In this document: positions 52,470-61,018 of the stretch, piece by piece
How positions within the stretch are numbered: position 1 is the first letter of the stretch
Layout: each line of letters opens with the position of its first letter
DNA from: Moraxellaceae bacterium
GTDB lineage: Bacteria; Pseudomonadota; Gammaproteobacteria; Pseudomonadales; Moraxellaceae
Length of the DNA stretch: 64,000 nt
Direction: 5' to 3'
NCBI GenBank assembly: GCA_030646295.1
Contig: JAUSND010000016.1
Span: 62,001 to 126,000 of the forward strand
Position numbers and translations under genes: made by a program
The notes under the pieces: generated by a model
Told to the model about the DNA's origin: nothing
The model's input: the letters and a program-made list of their open reading frames with translations, nothing else
The model's database searches: none

Positions 52470-55184
52470 TTACAAAAGAAACTCTGGCATGGGGCTGGTG
52501 GCAAAGGTTGTCGCAACGCCAGTAACGGCCGCCCAGACCTGGTTACGCATGCCTGAGCCTCCTTGCGCTGCCTGGAGAATGGCGGCCATGCGATTGCTGA
52601 CACCAAGCTTGGCAAAGATGTTCTTGAGATGCCATTTGGTGGTGGAAAGGGCCACGCCGATACGTGCACTGATTTCGTTATTGCTGAGGCCGTTGCGCAG
52701 CAGTTGCAGTACTTCCTGCTCCTTGGCGGTGAGGAGCGTGTCTTCCCGTCCCTCTGCCAGTGTGGATGGACTGTCCTGCAACAGGTCCTTGAACATCTCT
52801 ACATAAATGGCAGGCAGTGGAAGGTTACCGATCTCGTGGCAGCGCCGGAGGAATGTTCCCAGTCCGGGTGCCTCGTCAAATACTGTCCGGTTAATGCAGA
52901 TGATGCTGTAGTAGTCGACCATTTTTTTCAGGCGGTGCAACGCTACATTGTCATCACCCATCAGATGGCGGGTCAGGACCAGATTGGCTTCAACTACAAC
53001 AGCACGTGAATTGGCTCCGCTTTTTTTCAGGGCAGCCAGGATCACCTCAAGAATGTGCTCTGCCTCTTCAAAGCGCTGTTTGCTGCATAACCATAGTGAG
53101 GTGGCAAGTCCGTAACGTTCCCAGCCTTCATCATAGGCGCGGGTACGCCGCCATGTTCCATTGACCAGACGTTCCTGCAACTGGCTGGCGTCGGCGATGC
53201 GGTCCATGGCGTCCGTGTCGTTTTCGGCGTGTGCCTGGCGCAGCTCTTCGTACACCACCTGGCTCATGAAACGGTCGTAATTACCCATTTGCAGGATGCG
53301 CTTGAGTTGCGACAGCAGCCGGGCTGCTCTGGCGTTTTCCTGACGCAGGCTCAGCAAGCGAGAGAGCGTCAGGTATGTGTAGGCGATGATCTCGGTGGCA
53401 CAGGACGAGTTGACGAGGGGAACCAGTTCCTCGAGCAGGTTGAGCGAATCCTGTGTCCGGTTCTGTTCATACCGGACGACGGCAGCAGCCGTTGCCGCGT
53501 TGATCCATGTTGGCGTATGAGGAAAGTCGCGCAGTTTTTCAAAGTTGCTCTCGGCATTCTGCATGGCCTCGAACATGCGTCCTGTGTTGCGGTCGCAGAG
53601 AATCTGGATGAGGTCGGCATAACTGCACAGGTACTCGTAACCAAGCTGTCCAAGTACCACTCGTCCTTGCTCGGTATACTGCATGGCATTGCCGAACTCA
53701 CCGTGCAAAAGGTAGTGATACCCGAGAATGGTCAGTGAGAATGCACGAATGTCATGGTGCTGGCTGGAGCTGATCAGCATGGCCTGGTCAGTGTTAAGCA
53801 TGAAATCGGTATCGTGCTGGAACAGCTGCAGCATCATTTCCAGGAAAATCTGGGTGGATTCGTCAGGCTGGTGCCTGTTTTTCTGCTGTTGCAGTGCATC
53901 AAGGTAATACCGTGCCTGATTGAAGCGTCGCGACAGGATGAGGGCACTGATGAGTGCAATGAAGAGGTCGCGATCCGTCAGCACTTCTTCATCAGGCAGT
54001 GGGTCCAGCCAGCGGATAATGCTGATGCAGTCGCCCTTGCGCGACCAGCGATCACAGCTGGTGCGCAGTATTTCAAGAAACAGTCCGGGTTGCCTGGCCA
54101 GCTCGGCATGCTCCAGTGCCATTTCATCTTCGTTGTGAGAGAGCCATTCACGGGCTGCAGCTTCGTGCAGTACCGGAAGGCTGTCCGGAAATTCGATCCG
54201 CAGGCGGTTGCGCAGGAAGTCCTGGAACAGGGGGTGATAGCGGAACCAGCCCGGGCGCTGTTCGATCATCTGGAGAAAAAGTCCTTGCGACATCAGGCGA
54301 TCAATCAGGCGGGCAGAGTCTTCACGCTTCAGGACGGCATCGCACAGGGCGGCATCAAACCGCTCAAACAGTGACGAGTACAACAGGAACTCTCGCTGGT
54401 CCTCTGAAAGCCCTCGCAATACCACGTGGGCAAAATAATCGACCAGCTCTGGCTGTGAGCCACTGAAGGCTGTCAGCGCGGCATCCCCGGCACGGGCGCA
54501 GGCCAGCAAGGCAATCTTTACGCCAGCCATCCAGCCTTCGGTTTGTTGCAGCAGTTGGGCAATATGCTGGTCATTCGGGATCTCAAGGCCCATTTCTGTT
54601 GCCAGTTCACGAACCTGGGCTGGTGTCAGGCGCATGTCATGCCCGTCAATCAGCAGCAGTTTGTCGGCCAGCTTGAGACGGCTCAGGGAAAAGTCCGGGT
54701 GTACACGGGTGCCAAGAATGAAGTGCACATGCACTGGCAGGTATTCGAGCAGGGAGGAGAACGCGTCCTGGACCAGTTTGTGGGTAGCCAGCTGGAAATC
54801 ATCCAGCACGATGAACAGCTCTCCCTTGACCGCTTCAAAGGCTTGCAGCAGTGACTCGGCAACGCTGTGTGCGGGCAGGTGGATGTCGGCACCGAGTGGC
54901 GTGTACGACACCGTGTCAAAGTCAGGGACAACCTCACGGAGCGAGTCGGTCAGGTGGGCAAAGAAGTGCACCGGGTCGGCATCCCGGGGGTCCAGAACCA
55001 TCATGACGGTATGCCGTTCCGGCGTCTGCTTCTGCCATTGCTGGAGGAGGGTGGACTTGCCGAAGCCCGGGGGGGCAAGCAGGAGCGTCAGGGCGTAGTC
55101 GATGCTGCGATCCAGAAGACTCAGAAGCTCCGGTCGAGCAATACGGTTACCCGGCTCGCGGCCATGGCTGCGGTATCCTGGCAT
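52470..55184 (-). CDS. MalT-type LuxR-family transcriptional activator
   Basis: The product is 904 residues. Walker A LLLAPPGFGKSTLLQQW near residue 42 and FIVLDDFQLA (Walker B) define the STAND ATPase of MalT/AlkS-type regulators. Helical TPR-like repeats fill the middle. The C-terminal LuxR HTH is LTAKEQEVLQLLRNGLSNNEI with VALSTTKWHLKNIFAKL. Such proteins need ATP plus an inducer. It is divergent from the di-heme cytochrome gene at 55380 and is the likely regulator of that gene and of the peroxidase gene beyond. Confidence 0.9.
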   Translation of the reverse strand: MPGYRSHGREPGNRIARPELLSLLDRSIDYALTLLLAPPGFGKSTLLQQWQKQTPERHTVMMVLDPRDADPVHFFAHLTDSLREVVPDFDTVSYTPLGADIHLPAHSVAESLLQAFEAVKGELFIVLDDFQLATHKLVQDAFSSLLEYLPVHVHFILGTRVHPDFSLSRLKLADKLLLIDGHDMRLTPAQVRELATEMGLEIPNDQHIAQLLQQTEGWMAGVKIALLACARAGDAALTAFSGSQPELVDYFAHVVLRGLSEDQREFLLYSSLFERFDAALCDAVLKREDSARLIDRLMSQGLFLQMIEQRPGWFRYHPLFQDFLRNRLRIEFPDSLPVLHEAAAREWLSHNEDEMALEHAELARQPGLFLEILRTSCDRWSRKGDCISIIRWLDPLPDEEVLTDRDLFIALISALILSRRFNQARYYLDALQQQKNRHQPDESTQIFLEMMLQLFQHDTDFMLNTDQAMLISSSQHHDIRAFSLTILGYHYLLHGEFGNAMQYTEQGRVVLGQLGYEYLCSYADLIQILCDRNTGRMFEAMQNAESNFEKLRDFPHTPTWINAATAAAVVRYEQNRTQDSLNLLEELVPLVNSSCATEIIAYTYLTLSRLLSLRQENARAARLLSQLKRILQMGNYDRFMSQVVYEELRQAHAENDTDAMDRIADASQLQERLVNGTWRRTRAYDEGWERYGLATSLWLCSKQRFEEAEHILEVILAALKKSGANSRAVVVEANLVLTRHLMGDDNVALHRLKKMVDYYSIICINRTVFDEAPGLGTFLRRCHEIGNLPLPAIYVEMFKDLLQDSPSTLAEGREDTLLTAKEQEVLQLLRNGLSNNEISARIGVALSTTKWHLKNIFAKLGVSNRMAAILQAAQGGSGMRNQVWAAVTGVATTFATSPMPEFLL

Positions 55185-55293
55185 GGGCCATCTCCCTGAT
55201 TTTTATTATTTTTATGGATAAACGGTAGCGGGTAGGCGATGAAAAAACTAGCACAGAATCGTTAAGTGGTAAACACGATGTTCCTTTTTCCCC

Positions 55294-55313
55294 TCCCAAG
55301 GGGGGGGGAAGGG
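55294..55313. promoter_or_regulatory. C-tract/G9-tract element upstream of the cytochrome gene
   Basis: CCCTCCCAA followed by nine G (55300-55308) forms an inverted repeat in the intergenic DNA, about 70 bp before the cytochrome ATG. It resembles the GC-rich repeat before the peroxidase gene (61124-61149). It could be a MalT-type binding site or a slippage-prone tract. Confidence 0.4.
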
Positions 55314-55379
55314 CTGGGGCGGGATGTGCATGATTCGCTAGCCGGAGTCCATAGTGCCGGTGCCAGGAGGGTGACCATC

Positions 55380-57698
55380 ATGAATACAAAAAGAACAAGA
55401 AAGGCGCTTGGGCTGTCTGCCCTGCTGGCGCTACCGGGTCTGGGTCTTGCGGCTCCGAGCTTTCCCGAACAGGAAAAAGTCTGTAACTACGATGCCACAC
55501 GTGAGTTCAAGCGTGCGCTGTCGGCCACATCATTCCCGACGCCGGTCGCCAGCAGCATGCTGGTCAACGGTGTACAGGTATGGACGGCGGGATCGACGTC
55601 GGTACCCACCATCAAGCCGGGTGACACCATCACCCTGCGCGGGACCGGTTTTGGCCTGGGTACCGATATCGACTTCAGCAAGATCATGATTGGCAACAGT
55701 CGTGTGCTTGAAACCGACCTGAGCATGTACAAGCAGTCGCTCGACATCATCGCCCAGGTGAACTACGAAACGAGCAGCACGCACAGTACCTGGCCCAAGG
55801 ATGTCCTGAGCTGGACCAATACCGAGGTCAGGTTCAAGGTGCCGGTGCATGTGAGCGCCGGGCCGATCCAGCTGCAGGTGCAGAAGCGCGTTGGTCGCAT
55901 GGCATCACTGACCAAACCGGGTCAGGCTCATAACGTGATTGATGCCCAGACCAAGCGCATTACCAGTGACTTCTTCACGCACAAGTGTGACGTGGTGTCC
56001 GAACTGGGTACTGAAACCAAGTCGATTACCCCGATCAATGTCGCTGTCAGCAATTCCGGCTTGCCCGGTCTGCTGACGCAGGGACGCAAGATTTTCTGGT
56101 CCTACGATTTCAATATTGGTCTGGCTCACAAGATGCGCGAGCTAGACTGGGCCAAGATCTTTTCCTACAAGACAACGGACCCGATCACCCGCCAGCCGGC
56201 GGACCCGCGCAAGCTGTTTGGTGCCTACAAGACCGTGGCGGGCGAAGTGCCGGCTGAAGCGATCAATGACGTCTATTTTGATCCGTATCCAATGCCCAAT
56301 CCGATTCCCGGACTGTTGCTGGTGACGCCGCAAAAAACCAAGGGCAACACTAAAAATACGGGATGGGTTGGCTATCGTACGGCGGAGTCCAGTCATCCCT
56401 ACAACGGTAATGGTGCCTGGGCCGGCTTTAACTGTGCGTCCTGCCATGGCTATCGCATCAGCTATGAAAAAACGCCGGGCCAGCAGGTTACCAAGGTGGT
56501 GCCAGGCTTGCCCAACCCCGAATGGAGCATGAAGTGGACGGTACTGGGCGATAAGACCGGTGCAACCACGGCGACCTTCGACAGTATCGACATCAGCGAA
56601 GAGGGTCCTTCCTGGGCGCCGGGCAAGGCTGATATCGACAAGACCACCCTGTTGTACTACATGCCAGCCGGTGCAGGTGAGCACAACATTGTGCGAGGTG
56701 CCGGTGAAGGCAGCGAGACCGACAACGATTACCAGTTCTCGCCCATCACGATTCCGAACGTGACCAATTACATGGCGATCCGTCGTTCACTGTCGCACAC
56801 GGAATCCTATGTCGGGTTTGAAGGCTCCTACATCCACTCTGAAGAACCGGATGGCGCCATGGGCTCCATGCGTGCCGAGGACCTGAAGGCGCTGACGGCC
56901 TACATGACCACGCTGGACGGGGATGACAAGGACCTGCGCAATGTCGGCATTTATCGCTGGCTGAAGGCCAAGGGCAAGCTTGGCACCCAGACTGGCAATG
57001 CAGCGCTGACCGAAGGGCAGTTTGTACAGAATGGCTGGCAGTCCTATCCTGGTGTTGCCGCGACAGTCAATCAGGGCAAGACGGCCTATACCCGTGATTG
57101 TGCAAGCTGCCACAGCGACAAGCTTGGCGCCCACACCAACGAGCGCATGTTCCGTCTGGATCAGGTCGGCCGCTTCTTTGCGCCAACGATCTATCAGAAG
57201 GACCAGCAGTCCATTCGTGCCACCTTCCTGCGTGACATGTACTGGGTGCAGTCGCGTGGTCTGCTCTCCGATGGTCACGTCCGTAATATCGAGGATCTGG
57301 TAAACCCGGATCGTTGCACGGAAGGTACCGCGCTTTATAACCAGTATTACACGCTGCACTCTGCAGTACGTCCTGATCTGGGATCGCCGGATCAGCCTGC
57401 TGCCTGGCCTGATCTTAACCGCAAGGGCGATGTGTTCCGTATCTACAAGAATGTGGAATACAGCACCACAGACCCGTCCACCAAGCGCAACCGCTTTATC
57501 GAGCGGCACAAGTATTTTGTGACAGTGCCGTGGGATAACGGTCATTACTACTGGGATTACCAGAAAATGCGTCGCGAGTACGGCCCTGCGGAAATGGGTA
57601 CGGCCCAGCCGATTGGAATGCCGGCTGCACCACACCCCTGGTGTGCCGCTAACGGTGGCGATGTTGATGACCTGACGCAGTATGTGCTGACGCTTTAA
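55380..57698 (+). CDS. Secreted di-heme c-type cytochrome with IPT/TIG-like domain
   Basis: The product is 772 residues. Signal peptide ends GLA/APSFPEQ. Residues about 60-160 look like an IPT/TIG Ig-like domain (IKPGDTITLRGTGFGLGTD). Two heme c sites follow: CASCH at Cys352 and CASCH at Cys574. The large di-heme arrangement resembles MauG/RoxA-type and fatty acid di-heme oxygenase proteins, but I cannot assign a substrate. Met and His residues at the C-terminus could be distal ligands. AGGAGG lies just before the ATG. A terminator follows at 57733. Confidence 0.82.
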   Translation: MNTKRTRKALGLSALLALPGLGLAAPSFPEQEKVCNYDATREFKRALSATSFPTPVASSMLVNGVQVWTAGSTSVPTIKPGDTITLRGTGFGLGTDIDFSKIMIGNSRVLETDLSMYKQSLDIIAQVNYETSSTHSTWPKDVLSWTNTEVRFKVPVHVSAGPIQLQVQKRVGRMASLTKPGQAHNVIDAQTKRITSDFFTHKCDVVSELGTETKSITPINVAVSNSGLPGLLTQGRKIFWSYDFNIGLAHKMRELDWAKIFSYKTTDPITRQPADPRKLFGAYKTVAGEVPAEAINDVYFDPYPMPNPIPGLLLVTPQKTKGNTKNTGWVGYRTAESSHPYNGNGAWAGFNCASCHGYRISYEKTPGQQVTKVVPGLPNPEWSMKWTVLGDKTGATTATFDSIDISEEGPSWAPGKADIDKTTLLYYMPAGAGEHNIVRGAGEGSETDNDYQFSPITIPNVTNYMAIRRSLSHTESYVGFEGSYIHSEEPDGAMGSMRAEDLKALTAYMTTLDGDDKDLRNVGIYRWLKAKGKLGTQTGNAALTEGQFVQNGWQSYPGVAATVNQGKTAYTRDCASCHSDKLGAHTNERMFRLDQVGRFFAPTIYQKDQQSIRATFLRDMYWVQSRGLLSDGHVRNIEDLVNPDRCTEGTALYNQYYTLHSAVRPDLGSPDQPAAWPDLNRKGDVFRIYKNVEYSTTDPSTKRNRFIERHKYFVTVPWDNGHYYWDYQKMRREYGPAEMGTAQPIGMPAAPHPWCAANGGDVDDLTQYVLTL

Positions 57699-58270: not shown

Positions 58271-61018
58271 TTACTTGTCTTCGCTACGCTGGTGCTTGAA
58301 GAACACACCATTGTCACCGAAGGCAGACACGATCAGCGGTGAGGTCAGCTCCAGTTCGCCAATCTTCTTGGCACTGGCGCGACGCTCATTCGCATACTGT
58401 GTGTTGGTGGATGGCCAGATGGAGGTCTTGATTTCCATCGAGGTGGCGTACACGTCATACAGCTTCGAGCCGGCACCGAGGGTGGCCAGGTCGTGACGGA
58501 AGTCATGCGGGGTGGTGGCAAACTTTGTCTTCACTTCCGGGCGTGGCACAAAGTAGATCTGTGTCGGAGCCTTTGGTGTCGCCACAGTGGCGCCAGTCTG
58601 CGTTACCTCTGCCATGTCGTTCATGATCACGAGTGTCGGCTTGGTGCTGACAGCCGAGAACAGGATGGTGGAACCCAGTTCGTTGGCATCAGTCGACACA
58701 TAGTTCGACAGTTCTTTGGCAAAGAAGTTGTAGTTGGTGCCCTGACCGGCCAGCGTGTAGAGCGCCGACACGTTTTCCGATGGCTTGCCGTTCACGAGAG
58801 CCTTCCAGGCCAGACCAGGCTGGAACTTGTTGTTTGCCGCCGGATTTTCGGTGACGGACAGACGCAGCAGGCCGTAGTCCGAGCCCTGGAACAGGCCGGT
58901 GTAGCCGTTGCCGGCAACCGGTACAAACTTCACCTTGGCCATGGCAGCGTGACGGTGGATTGGCTTGACGTAGCCGGCAGGGGCGACATCAGTACGGGTT
59001 TGCACCTTCTTCCAGAGGATGGAGCTGATCAGGCCACCGGTATCGGTCTCTGCCAGAGCAGGCATGGTGGTCTTGTACTGTGTGCGCTTGGCACCGTTCA
59101 CCCAGAGGTGATCAGCCTTGGCACTGGCATTCCAGCTTTCGTAGTCAGCTGTCATGTTCAGGCCCCATGGCTTGAAGGCATTTTCTACGCCGGTCAGGCT
59201 GAGTGCCAGCTGCGGGTTGTGACGACGGAGTACATCAACCATCGTGGTGTTTTCCACCCAGTTGTAACCTTCCTGTGTGTAAACGGCCGGTGTGTAGTCC
59301 TTGGTGTAGAAGCGGTCGGTCATCAGACGGCGCGAAGCATTCATGATGAAGATCTGGAAGGCGGTTTCGCCGAAGGCAAAGCCGTCAGGACGCACGGTTT
59401 CGGCCATCATGCCGACCATGGTGTCGATCTTCTCGATGTCGTTGTTGTACAGGCGCTTCAGGTTGGCCAGCGTGACAGGATCGGTTGTCAGGTCTTCGAA
59501 CTTCGTGATCGGGTTCAGCTGGATCTGGCGGCGGAACTCGTTGTAACGAGGTACACCACGTTCGCGGTCACGCAGGATGTCGATCGTTGCCAGATCGATG
59601 TTGCCAACGGTTGGAATCGAGAGGTTACGCAGGAAGTTCGGGTAGTTGTTCAGCGTCAGCGAACCGGGGTTCGTGATGCCGAAGGAGTACCACAGGCGTT
59701 CCGGAGTTTCGCTGTTCAGCATGGATTCGGCATTGGCATCGCGTGTGTCTGGCAGTGCCACGGTCTTTACGACTTCATTGTCACCAATGTCGTAAACCTG
59801 GACGTTGTCACGCATCAGCGGGTGCATGCGATACACGGCAACAAACTCTTCCGTCAGGGTGTACGGTGTGCCGGAGTTGTTCGGGTTGGCTGAGCCAACC
59901 AGACCGGCAATGGCGTGATCCAGCGTGCCGCTGCCGACGTTACCAGCCAGGTTGGAATCCGTGCCGAGGATGGTCTTGATGAACGAGTCGGTCTTGGACA
60001 GGTCGTCGTACCACTGGCGGGTTTCTGCCTGGTACTTGTCACGACCTTCGGCGTTACCGATCAGACCCCACCAGTTGGCGTACATGGCGCGCTCGGTGAC
60101 CGGGTTCGCGATCACGGCAGGCGTCCATTCCACGGTGTGGATCTTGGCCATCAGGGCAGAGTTGACCAGGCGTGCCTTGTCATACAGCCACTGGTCGCTT
60201 GCCGTCGGGTACTTCTGCTTGAGCATGGTGGCAATGGCATTGTGCTCTTTGGTGAAGAGCTGGTGCAGCATGCTCAGACCCACCCACCAGTTTTCGTTGA
60301 AGCCGGTGATCGACTTGCCGCTGAGGAACTCCTTGGGCAGCGTGCCGTCAGCATTGATCTTCAGCTTGCCGTCCACAAAGGAGCGTACGGTGTTGTTGGT
60401 GGCCTTGCTGCTGCCATACAGCTGCGAGCCGTCCCACCAGTGGGTGTTGTGGTTGCGGTAGGTGTTGATCTTGCCGGCATCGACGGCGGTGCGGCTGGGG
60501 TCGGCCTGAGTGCGGCGCACATCCAGGTAACCGGTACCCAGCGCATCACCGGAGGGCAGCGGAACCTTGATCGGGTTGGAGGACTGGTTGGCGCCGTGAT
60601 CCACCCAGTCATGCACCATGAACTGGATCCATGACGCTGCGATGAAGTTCAGGCTGGGGGCGGGCTTGAAGGGGCCACGGGCCAGCAGGGTGTTACTGAC
60701 TTCACGGGGGTTGGGGCTAAGCAGGCCGGTTGCTTCGGTTTCACCCGTGGCAGCAGTCGGATCCACGTTGCGGCCAAAGCGCACGTAGACTGAACCTTCG
60801 GCCGGGTTTGACAGGATGTTGCAGGTACCGTCTTCGGTACGTGCCGTCAGGCTGCGCTGGTCGCAGGTGATGGAGCCGTTGAGTTTCGGGTAGTCCTCAA
60901 GATCGAACAAGTTGTTCTCGAGGAGATTGGAGCGCTCTACCGCCAGCGTGATAAGACCTGCGGCGATCCCTAAGGTGCCGAATTTGGTCAAGGCTGGCCA
61001 GGTGACCCAGATTGCCAT
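58271..61018 (-). CDS. Fatty acid alpha-dioxygenase-like heme peroxidase fused to a catalase-like domain
   Basis: The product is 915 residues, against about 640 for plant alpha-dioxygenases. N-terminal region: distal His in FMVHDWVDH (136-141), LHQLFTKEHNAI (251-262), KIHTVEW (292-298), and catalytic Tyr396 with proximal His399 in VYRMHPLMRD. RERGVPRYNEFRR follows. These are hallmarks of fatty acid alpha-dioxygenases, which make 2-hydroperoxy acids. From about residue 677 a separate region begins (HRHAAMAKVKF, GLFQGSDYGLLRLSV, GQGTNYNFF, ending FGDNGVFFKHQRSED) that resembles catalase-like heme domains of allene-oxide-synthase-type proteins. That second assignment is tentative. No signal peptide or CxxCH is seen. 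GAGG lies before the ATG. Confidence 0.82.
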   Translation of the reverse strand: MAIWVTWPALTKFGTLGIAAGLITLAVERSNLLENNLFDLEDYPKLNGSITCDQRSLTARTEDGTCNILSNPAEGSVYVRFGRNVDPTAATGETEATGLLSPNPREVSNTLLARGPFKPAPSLNFIAASWIQFMVHDWVDHGANQSSNPIKVPLPSGDALGTGYLDVRRTQADPSRTAVDAGKINTYRNHNTHWWDGSQLYGSSKATNNTVRSFVDGKLKINADGTLPKEFLSGKSITGFNENWWVGLSMLHQLFTKEHNAIATMLKQKYPTASDQWLYDKARLVNSALMAKIHTVEWTPAVIANPVTERAMYANWWGLIGNAEGRDKYQAETRQWYDDLSKTDSFIKTILGTDSNLAGNVGSGTLDHAIAGLVGSANPNNSGTPYTLTEEFVAVYRMHPLMRDNVQVYDIGDNEVVKTVALPDTRDANAESMLNSETPERLWYSFGITNPGSLTLNNYPNFLRNLSIPTVGNIDLATIDILRDRERGVPRYNEFRRQIQLNPITKFEDLTTDPVTLANLKRLYNNDIEKIDTMVGMMAETVRPDGFAFGETAFQIFIMNASRRLMTDRFYTKDYTPAVYTQEGYNWVENTTMVDVLRRHNPQLALSLTGVENAFKPWGLNMTADYESWNASAKADHLWVNGAKRTQYKTTMPALAETDTGGLISSILWKKVQTRTDVAPAGYVKPIHRHAAMAKVKFVPVAGNGYTGLFQGSDYGLLRLSVTENPAANNKFQPGLAWKALVNGKPSENVSALYTLAGQGTNYNFFAKELSNYVSTDANELGSTILFSAVSTKPTLVIMNDMAEVTQTGATVATPKAPTQIYFVPRPEVKTKFATTPHDFRHDLATLGAGSKLYDVYATSMEIKTSIWPSTNTQYANERRASAKKIGELELTSPLIVSAFGDNGVFFKHQRSEDK

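Follow-up and report, generated by a model that had tools for sequence, protein, structure and literature searches.

A putative fatty acid alpha-dioxygenase joined to a predicted catalase-fold domain without a proximal haem ligand in a Moraxellaceae bacterium

Does the long gene at 58271-61018 of the window (the whole stretch of 64,000 nucleotides analysed here, from a Moraxellaceae bacterium) encode one haem enzyme or two joined in a single chain? An earlier note on this DNA proposed the latter, namely an alpha-dioxygenase (alpha-DOX) making fatty acid 2-hydroperoxides and fused to a catalase-like domain that rearranges or breaks them. In the ORF list the gene is an uninterrupted open reading frame of 915 aa that occupies exactly 58271-61018 on the minus strand. 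Its relatives are 61-91% identical in a 31-row alignment, and the alignment of 79 related loci revealed that the alpha-dioxygenase and the catalase-like domain are kept in one chain across many gammaproteobacteria. The single polypeptide claimed by the note is thus neither misread nor a chance fusion, and the arrangement is conserved. All residue counts below refer to 80 aligned rows (the window plus the 79 loci). An NCBIfam search with the whole protein gave no match, and Pfam (E up to 1) gave An_peroxidase only over the whole chain, with no lipoxygenase domain. The features of the gene are:

58271..61018, minus strand: whole protein, putative alpha-dioxygenase plus catalase-fold domain, 915 aa, stop codon included (ORF)
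59162..61018, minus strand: putative fatty acid alpha-dioxygenase part, residues 1-619 (Pfam, PDB search, residue counts, PMC8720084)
58274..59155, minus strand: predicted catalase-fold domain without the proximal Tyr, residues 622-915 (AlphaFold2, Foldseek, VIA-align, conservation, profile-profile comparison)
58955..58966, minus strand: K685-P-I-H688 (profile alignment, conservation in 80/80 rows, PMC5617202)
58274..58315, minus strand: C-terminal end from D902 ('...FFKHQRSEDK') (conservation, VIA-align)

A hydrophobic stretch lies near the N-terminus (about residues 14-27), and the alpha-dioxygenase part spans residues ~60-619. The Pfam family An_peroxidase matches residues 60-604 (E 2.8e-107). 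In the PDB search the three best solved relatives are all plant alpha-DOX (E 1.4e-110 to 3e-103); the next family follows at E 1.3e-29, and the alpha-DOX matches exceed lactoperoxidase by >240 bits. The accessible passages of PMC8720084 give the roles of H157, H382, Y379, H311, T316 and R559 in the rice alpha-DOX, of which His311, Thr316 and Arg559 place the carboxylate and C2. Mapped by eye on the 4kvj alignment with a constant offset of 3, these residues correspond to H136, H399, Y396, H294, T299 and R564 of the window protein, which therefore has the haem ligands His136 and His399, the radical Tyr396 (roles by PMC8720084) and the substrate residues His294, Thr299 and Arg564. H294, T299, Y396, H399 and R564 are each present in 80/80 rows and H136 in all 78 rows with a letter there, and the note was correct that the N-terminal part keeps the haem ligands and catalytic Tyr of alpha-dioxygenases. 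This part also contains T192, W194, D196 and S198, which we take to be a calcium site, and Cys52 and Cys66. The same family includes the plant and cyanobacterial alpha-DOX (4kvj, 4kvl, 4hhr; CalDOX, LepDOX), with the same haem ligands, radical Tyr and H311/T316/R559 equivalents. CalDOX of Calothrix is closely related (43% identity, averaged over two pieces that include the second domain as well), and O2-dependent C2 oxygenation of fatty acids is reported for it in the accessible passages of PMC8720084. Because of the conserved residues and this tested homologue, we infer alpha-DOX activity. It seems very improbable that the dioxygenase part is a peroxidase, or a dioxygenase with another regiospecificity: the animal haem peroxidase family to which it belongs is wide, and sequence alone cannot give product specificity, but the PDB ranking, the invariant carboxylate- and C2-placing residues and the tested CalDOX all argue against it.

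The C-terminal domain is longer than the 240 residues assigned to it by the note; its junction with the Calothrix stand-alone gene places it at residues 622-915 (~294 residues). The AlphaFold2 model of this domain has a pLDDT of 85.8 and a pTM of 0.87. When the structure prediction was compared with catalase and AOS folds, a check suggested by the note, the best match in Foldseek was the M. avium 33-kDa catalase-related protein (a mini-catalase; E 4.9e-4, the sole match below 0.001), followed by coral AOS (E 0.043), with TM-scores of 0.36 and 0.35. The top VIA-align match had Z 10.5 (191 residues, 3.9 A) and AOS had Z 9.3, compared with a usual best Z of 7 to 8 for models without a clear match. 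The best 50 matches listed, many of them near-copies, are all catalase or catalase-related (Z 10.5 to 9.3); we count among these chanoclavine synthase, which presumably has the catalase fold. The full-length model was poor in the dioxygenase part (mean pLDDT 65.6). We regard the model-based evidence for a catalase fold, as the note had predicted, as good, not overwhelming.

Sequence comparisons give modest evidence for a catalase kinship of this domain. Pfam searches at E up to 10 with four fused domains and one stand-alone domain found no catalase (PF00199) and one unrelated family at 0.13; three further stand-alone forms had no Pfam catalase match at 0.01, the domain profile, run against PDB sequences, retrieved no catalase, and the domain had no match in phage records. 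Lumazine synthase, the top hit of the PDB profile search (E 3.6e-4, 91 positions), looks like chance and conflicts with the fold. In hhalign comparisons the narrow alignments A2 or A3 against A4 were not significant (P 0.33-0.48); the wider domain alignment against A4 gave P 0.0087 and a score of 27.5, with controls at no more than 24.25 (shuffled) and at 21.1 (reversed). A comparison of the domain family (A6) with the mini-catalases (A7) gave P 5.7e-4 and a score of 35.7 over 209 columns, where 100 column-shuffled controls reached at most 19.75 and the reversed control 18.1. The motifs K/R-x-x-H, R-x-S and G-x-A-x-K line up between the C-terminal domain and the mini-catalase in the profile alignment. 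Of the two segments that the note had singled out, 'HRHAAM' is not a motif, since H688 is invariant (80/80) but position 690 is H in 34/80 and position 691 is G in 72/80; in 'NFF', F766 is conserved in 80/80, while N764 is N in only 67/80 and F765 is F in only 58/80.

Coral AOS and catalases have R64, H67, R102, N137, Y353 and R360 in common (PMC5617202). K685, H688 and R719 of the window domain are the equivalents of R64, H67 and R102, K685-P-I-H688 being the counterpart of the distal-side R64-x-x-H67, and they align to R88, H91 and R128 of the mini-catalase L151; each is present in 80/80 rows. Coral AOS has Arg where the window domain has Lys at K685. Also conserved are K739, N749, D839-F840-R841 and H909, the last in 76/78 rows and in all 13 rows of a wide alignment. 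N762 (76/80) and N764 (67/80), otherwise Asp, are candidates for the N137 position of AOS, with uncertain register. The chain does not extend to the Y353/R360 stretch of coral AOS; it breaks off just short of Tyr353. VIA-align sets the model's final residue against 353-355 in human catalase, 410-413 in HPII and 349 in AOS, although the register of the chain end is unsure, since confidence is low over the final four residues of the model (block mean 58). We take the proximal haem Tyr to be Tyr358 in human catalase and Tyr415 in HPII. The stop codon lies at the same point in 74 of the 78 loci whose end is covered, including L077 with its frame break, and the early end is also found in six stand-alone homologues aligned; all 11 mini-catalase domains used as controls have an intact R-x-x-x-Y. 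An ungapped match of the chain end to the catalase motif could place Tyr912 as the proximal ligand. It is rejected as a feature of the family, since 42 of the 76 rows with letters at position 912 have no Tyr (Y in 34, S in 14, N in 13, H in 8) and the window itself has Ser. Thus, the proximal Tyr haem ligand (R-x-x-x-Y) is absent from the C-terminal domain, and since the haem-holding residue is missing, the catalase-like part is probably no second haem enzyme. The note's picture of a working AOS- or catalase-type haem enzyme is not supported: K685, H688 and R719 are present, but the chain stops before the proximal Tyr stretch. By the note's own refuting condition of a single haem, the strong, two-haem form of an oxylipin pathway would probably fail.

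Pairings of an alpha-DOX with a catalase-fold partner occur in other arrangements as well. In Calothrix, the same catalase-fold domain is encoded by a gene of its own in the vicinity of the CalDOX gene; CalDOX is active when expressed alone, according to the accessible part of PMC8720084, so that the domain is dispensable for alpha-DOX chemistry in that relative. In Rhizobium, Phyllobacterium and Nonomuraea, a mini-catalase with an intact R-x-x-x-Y is fused in reversed order to an alpha-DOX, and the paired alpha-DOX fall into two separate groups of the dioxygenase tree. From the Calothrix gene pair, the reversed fusions and the two tree groups, the idea of alpha-DOX coming with catalase-fold partners was right in spirit, and such pairings in other bacteria hint that fatty-acid peroxides are handled in a manner not yet studied. 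A 301-aa gene after the Qingshengfaniella alpha-DOX was rejected as a catalase-like partner for want of similarity. Lys, Arg, Lys, Asn and D-F-R are invariant across 13 divergent rows, which include stand-alone forms with signal-like N-termini, and the two remotest stand-alone homologues have Gln in place of the distal His. No dioxygenase was recognised around the stand-alone domain genes of L130 (ORF list inspected by eye) and P. veronii (annotation).

Haem dioxygenases coupled to catalase-related partners are already known from cyanobacteria. Nostoc punctiforme has a linoleate 10S-dioxygenase and a 10S-hydroperoxide lyase (Brash 2014, as cited in the accessible parts of PMC9579011 and PMC13049297). 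Like the window protein, this system combines a COX-superfamily dioxygenase with a catalase-related partner; a review speaks of a 2012 fusion of two such proteins, which may be the same system. In contrast to the window protein, the accessible accounts describe 10-position chemistry on linoleate and, for Nostoc, separate genes and a lyase-active partner. The coral AOS- and HPL-lipoxygenases and the cyanobacterial catalase-lipoxygenase fusions likewise join a catalase-fold domain to an enzyme producing fatty acid hydroperoxides, but that oxygenase is a lipoxygenase, which is C-terminal in the coral proteins; the catalase-like part of the coral proteins keeps R64, H67, R102, N137, Y353 and R360, whereas that of the window is last in the chain and ends before Y353. 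The mini-catalases (PF00199 'catalase family', ~370 aa; M. avium 3e4w/3e4y and the own genome copy L151) have the same predicted fold as the window domain, which differs in having neither a PF00199 match nor the proximal R-x-x-x-Y helix. The rhizobial and Nonomuraea fusions (peroxidase family protein, about 935-950 aa) share alpha-DOX and catalase-fold domain with the window protein and differ in their opposite order, intact R-x-x-x-Y and separate dioxygenase group. Fungal PpoC and CcDOX1 also carry a conserved partner domain, not acting as P450, but it is P450-related and their dioxygenase makes 10- or 8-hydroperoxides. The P450-related domain of CcDOX1/2 has no haem Cys, and the dioxygenase domain of Coprinopsis CcDOX1 alone is inactive (both from the accessible part of PMC9579011); CcDOX1 may by analogy serve as a precedent for a dead haem partner domain. 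The solved alpha-DOX and CalDOX, unlike the window protein, have no catalase-fold extension. The accessible passages of PMC8720084 describe no catalase-like domain on an alpha-DOX and state that N- and C-terminal extensions were removed from the alignment before the tree was built, and no fused alpha-DOX/catalase is described in the titles and abstract starts listed by searches of open-licence papers. The combination of an alpha-DOX with a catalase-fold partner that has no haem ligand is a new variant of this known kind.

We consider that the protein is probably a fatty acid alpha-dioxygenase whose C-terminal catalase-fold domain has no proximal haem ligand and most likely serves a non-haem role. 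The N-terminal part would bind one haem and form a tyrosyl radical on Tyr396, which would take a hydrogen at C2 from a free fatty acid held by His294, Arg564 and Thr299; O2 addition would then give a 2-hydroperoxy fatty acid. The C-terminal domain would be a pseudo-catalase, with the barrel and the distal Lys, His and Arg retained and the proximal Tyr gone. Without a haem of its own, it would most likely keep the dioxygenase in an active shape and use its old distal pocket to take up the fatty acid or the 2-hydroperoxide, which is short-lived, and so allow a controlled hand-over of the product, to decarboxylation (yielding the Cn-1 aldehyde), to a 2-hydroxy acid or to a partner enzyme. A bolder version, which we put forward tentatively, is that the ligand-less barrel is a haem-free partner enzyme, or has a His909-type haem site, and takes 2-hydroperoxy fatty acids from the attached alpha-dioxygenase, the domain also working alone elsewhere; if true, it would add a new class of lipid enzyme that has the catalase fold without being a catalase.

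A one-polypeptide oxylipin pathway in which the catalase-fold domain holds haem through another ligand (for example His909, or one from a partner chain or the dioxygenase part) and itself converts the 2-hydroperoxide, as an isomerase, lyase or peroxidase, appears unlikely. The invariant distal Lys685, His688 and Arg719, the near-invariant His909, the rhizobial fusions with R-x-x-x-Y intact and the separate-gene catalase-related lyase that transforms the Nostoc 10S-DOX product (accessible part of PMC13049297) are in its favour, but there is neither a conserved proximal Tyr nor an R-x-x-x-Y, six aligned stand-alone homologues have the same truncation, and the distal His is Gln in the two remotest. 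It is distinctly unlikely that the domain is a haem-free enzyme or binder of an anionic lipid or hydroperoxide, with Lys685, Arg719, Lys739 and Arg841 as a carboxylate site and His688 in acid-base chemistry; the residues invariant across the 13 divergent rows, stand-alone forms included, and the stand-alone genes of L130 and P. veronii around which no dioxygenase was recognised are consistent with it, whereas the titles and abstract starts searched gave no haem-free catalase-fold enzyme. Speaking against our preferred reading, the conservation of K685, H688 and R719 on the former haem side (80/80), and of H909 (76/78), exceeds what a plain scaffold would require, and these residues would also suit a haem held another way.

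Bacterial alpha-oxidation of fatty acids has hardly been studied; the accessible passages of PMC8720084 state that little is known about non-plant alpha-DOX and name one earlier cyanobacterial enzyme. Here a conserved gammaproteobacterial alpha-DOX clade, which includes Alcanivorax, Marinobacter, Oleispira and Pseudomonas, carries a built-in second domain. That alpha-DOX pair with catalase-fold proteins in three arrangements points to a partner that handles the unstable 2-hydroperoxide, a role that would be missed by work on a lone alpha-DOX. It is also unusual that a catalase fold is retained across genera without its haem ligand.

The genomic neighbourhood includes two further genes:

55266..57698, plus strand: convergent neighbour, 810 aa, two CxxCH motifs, TIG domain (context)
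52470..55184, minus strand: MalT-type LuxR regulator (context, outside the protein)

The convergent c-type cytochrome was rejected as a pathway partner, being near the gene in only 6/80 other loci. Its only PDB match (E 0.018) is not convincing, and the RoxA-like cytochrome next to the Rhizobium fusion resembles it only over CxxCH-sized stretches. A type II secretion link was likewise rejected: gspC, D, F or G genes occur in 30/80 loci, confined to Pseudomonas (27), Atopomonas (2) and one gammaproteobacterial MAG, and because of these taxon labels the proximity counts as one event. Five further loci, of the Thalassolituus type, have a single GspE-like ATPase only. Open reading frames 'orfV/orfX' are reportedly described in a paper on the P. 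alcaligenes xcp cluster. A regulator of the MalT-type LuxR family lies near the gene in 63/80 related loci.

The alpha-dioxygenase (alpha-DOX) fusion is encoded by a single gene of the window:

58271-61018, minus strand, uninterrupted ORF of 915 codons, alpha-DOX followed by a catalase-fold domain

Residues 60-604 of its product match the animal haem peroxidase family of Pfam (E 2.8e-107), and in a PDB search the three best solved relatives are plant alpha-dioxygenases (E 1.4e-110 to 3e-103), followed by lactoperoxidase (1.3e-29). Alignment with the solved structures, read with the residue roles of PMC8720084, identifies H136 and H399 as the haem ligands, Y396 as the radical tyrosine, and H294, T299 and R564 as the residues placing the carboxylate and C2. 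Rice alpha-DOX numbering has a constant offset of 3 from chain 4kvj, and the species of the 4KV and 4HH entries are swapped in PMC8720084, which leaves the residue match unaffected. Among 80 rows (the window and 79 of 80 related loci, L077 being left out for its frame breaks), H294, T299, Y396, H399 and R564 are conserved in every row, and H136 in all 78 with a letter at that place. The earlier note was thus right that the N-terminal part keeps the haem ligands and catalytic Tyr of alpha-DOX.

A Pfam search with the C-terminal domain listed no family. The AlphaFold2 model of residues 622-915, made from 75 sequences, has a mean pLDDT of 85.8 and a pTM of 0.87. Foldseek against the PDB returned a 33-kDa catalase-related protein of M. 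avium as the sole match below 0.001 (E 4.9e-4) and coral allene oxide synthase (AOS) in the second row (E 0.043), both with low TM-scores (0.36 and 0.35, respectively). When the Foldseek list was re-examined with VIA-align, each of the 50 rows displayed had a catalase fold, variants of a single enzyme making up many of them, and Z ran from 10.5 (191 residues, 3.9 A) down to 9.3, the value for AOS; the tool's own note gives 7 to 8 as the usual best Z where no clear match exists. When the family profile of the domain included the stand-alone members (A6), it aligned with a mini-catalase profile (A7) over 209 columns (P 5.7e-4), and its score of 35.7 exceeded all 100 column-shuffled controls (maximum 19.75); comparisons with narrower or fewer sequences were weak (P 0.48 to 0.0087). 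Model and profiles together support the proposal that the C-terminal part is catalase-like.

The haem of coral AOS and catalases is coordinated by R64, R102 and R360, with H67, T66 and N137 as distal residues and Y353 as proximal ligand (PMC5617202). In the A6 versus A7 alignment K685, H688 and R719, each conserved in 80 of 80 rows, fall on the mini-catalase places of R64, H67 and R102. Of the HRHAAM segment, previously taken as a catalase-like motif, the first His is conserved and the remaining positions are not. The distal His is replaced by Gln in two stand-alone relatives, L167 and L168. According to VIA-align, the final residue of the model aligns with AOS 349, human catalase 353-355 and HPII 410-413; the proximal Tyr is Tyr358 in human catalase and Tyr415 in HPII. 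Among the 78 loci with the end present, 74 have their stop codon here (L077 is counted, its frame breaks being upstream), the exceptions being three loci 1-2 residues longer and L010, which is around 100 residues longer, as after a frame change. Six stand-alone homologues share the end point. By contrast, R363 and Y367 of R-x-x-x-Y are present in 11 of 11 mini-catalase domains. Because the C-terminal domain stops before the proximal Tyr, by family rules it cannot hold haem as catalase does.

The related loci are the best 80 of 146 relatives, a choice that favours full-length matches and hence gives no measure of fusion frequency. Residue 909 or further is reached by 78 of them, L030 ending at 893 and L036 at 780, near a contig end. 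Hosts among these best 80 include Agitococcus and Fluviicoccus (Moraxellaceae), Pseudomonas, Atopomonas, Alcanivorax, Marinobacter, Oleispira, Thalassolituus, Teredinibacter and others; one contig attributed to a Pedobacter MAG carries an 80% identical copy (L005), probably under a wrong label, as a contig agreeing with it in length and match position (G038) counts towards the window's own genus in the family sample. Matches to the fusion protein occur in 12 of 199 genomes of the family and in 37 of the 293 sampled from the order. Of these 37, 17 (counting the genome of the window) match over the whole length and ten, one of which is also among the 17, have an alpha-DOX frame that stands alone and is 588-625 codons long; the remaining matches are distant or partial ones to peroxidases. 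With the C-terminal part alone as query, two genomes in the class sample of 321 (one being that of the window) and seven in the phylum sample of 398 were matched, five of the seven being fusions.

Besides the window-type fusion, alpha-DOX and the catalase fold are paired in two other arrangements. Calothrix sp. PCC 6303 carries an alpha-DOX gene on a plasmid; behind it come a 110-aa ORF, a transposase gene, the gene of a 303-aa stand-alone homologue that is 44% identical to the window's C-terminal domain, and then genes for a GMC oxidoreductase and a patatin-like phospholipase. This alpha-DOX is taken to be the characterised CalDOX, because all 16 numbered CalDOX residues checked (PMC8720084) fit it; the available text names Calothrix parietina as the source, with no strain. 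In the other arrangement, seen in Rhizobium, Phyllobacterium and Nonomuraea, proteins of around 935-950 aa (four examined) have a PF00199 domain first and alpha-DOX second. At least 80% of this reversed fusion is present in 16 plasmid records, and a patatin gene lies close to that of Phyllobacterium. The related features are:

L164, 3645-12805, Calothrix array: AraC regulator, alpha-DOX, transposase region, catalase-fold protein, GMC oxidoreductase, patatin-like phospholipase
L171, 1768-4593, and L173, L174, L175, reversed fusions with intact R-x-x-x-Y mini-catalase, where annotated only "peroxidase family protein"
L130, 7748-8653; L165, 6881-7861; L126, 1309-2589, stand-alone domain relatives, signal-like N-termini (by eye)
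L167, 3807-4847; L168, 4241-5227, likewise

A RoxA-like cytochrome c gene lies 3' of the reversed fusion in L171, and in L170 (4637-5542) a 301-aa protein without Pfam match is encoded directly 3' of an alphaproteobacterial alpha-DOX gene. Genome G345 has the fusion plus a stand-alone alpha-DOX and a stand-alone domain copy around 23 kb apart, the latter lipoprotein-like by eye.

Of 29 dioxygenase domains placed in a tree, those 15 with the catalase fold behind alpha-DOX form one group (support 99/100), as do the four with it ahead (100/100); the former adjoins five stand-alone gammaproteobacterial rows (91/100), and deeper forks are open. Given the separate groups and the reversed domain order, two separate fusion events are the simplest reading.

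The residues observed suggest that one haem and a Tyr radical would insert O2 at C2 of a free fatty acid, yielding an (R)-2-hydroperoxide, which gives a Cn-1 aldehyde and a 2-hydroxy acid in known alpha-DOX (PMC8720084). The ligand-less catalase barrel may then support the dioxygenase, its old distal pocket holding or passing on substrate or product. The fungal CcDOX1 is similar in being a dioxygenase with a partner domain lacking its haem ligand, namely a P450-related one in which the haem Cys is missing; on its own, the dioxygenase domain of CcDOX1 showed no activity (PMC9579011). That the catalase-fold domain is likewise a needed partner is countered by CalDOX, which is active when expressed by itself (PMC8720084), and a mere scaffold fits poorly with the invariant Lys, His and Arg of the old distal side. 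The phospholipase neighbours in two arrangements (Calothrix and Phyllobacterium) fit a route in which membrane lipid yields fatty acid and this in turn the hydroperoxide.

Among the open-licence papers listed by our searches, none describes a fusion of alpha-DOX with a catalase-fold domain. Nostoc is known to have a COX-like dioxygenase whose partner is catalase-related (Brash 2014, as cited in PMC9579011 and PMC13049297), and one review sentence mentions a cyanobacterial catalase-haem dioxygenase fusion converting linoleate (PMC11719350). Fusions of a catalase-type domain with a lipoxygenase are also known, from corals (PMC5617202) and cyanobacteria (PMC11719350).

The window protein has no cysteines but C52 and C66, which 78 of 80 rows share; taken together with its hydrophobic N-terminus and with the signals on stand-alone relatives, this hints at export. 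Since the N-terminal helix of known alpha-DOX contributes to the substrate channel (L53, R57; PMC8720084), the hydrophobic N-terminus is no sure sign of it.

The fusion gene of the window appears to stand alone. An M48-family peptidase gene lies upstream, and on the other side are:

55266-57698, convergent, downstream of the fusion gene, 810-aa protein with TIG domain and two CxxCH motifs
52470-55184, MalT-type LuxR regulator

The 810-aa protein, which is unusual and only weakly related to di-haem cytochrome c peroxidases, is near the fusion gene in six of the 80 other loci, and the regulator in 63 of 80 (tblastn). By ORF, the regulator is on the same strand just upstream (77-377 bases) in 48 loci, divergent upstream in 10 and downstream in two, the window included. 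A type II secretion cluster contains or adjoins the fusion gene in 30 loci (for example, L009, 248-12662), of which 29 bear the label Pseudomonas or Atopomonas. Within the Pseudomonas lineage the gene often lies between gspC/D and gspE-G.
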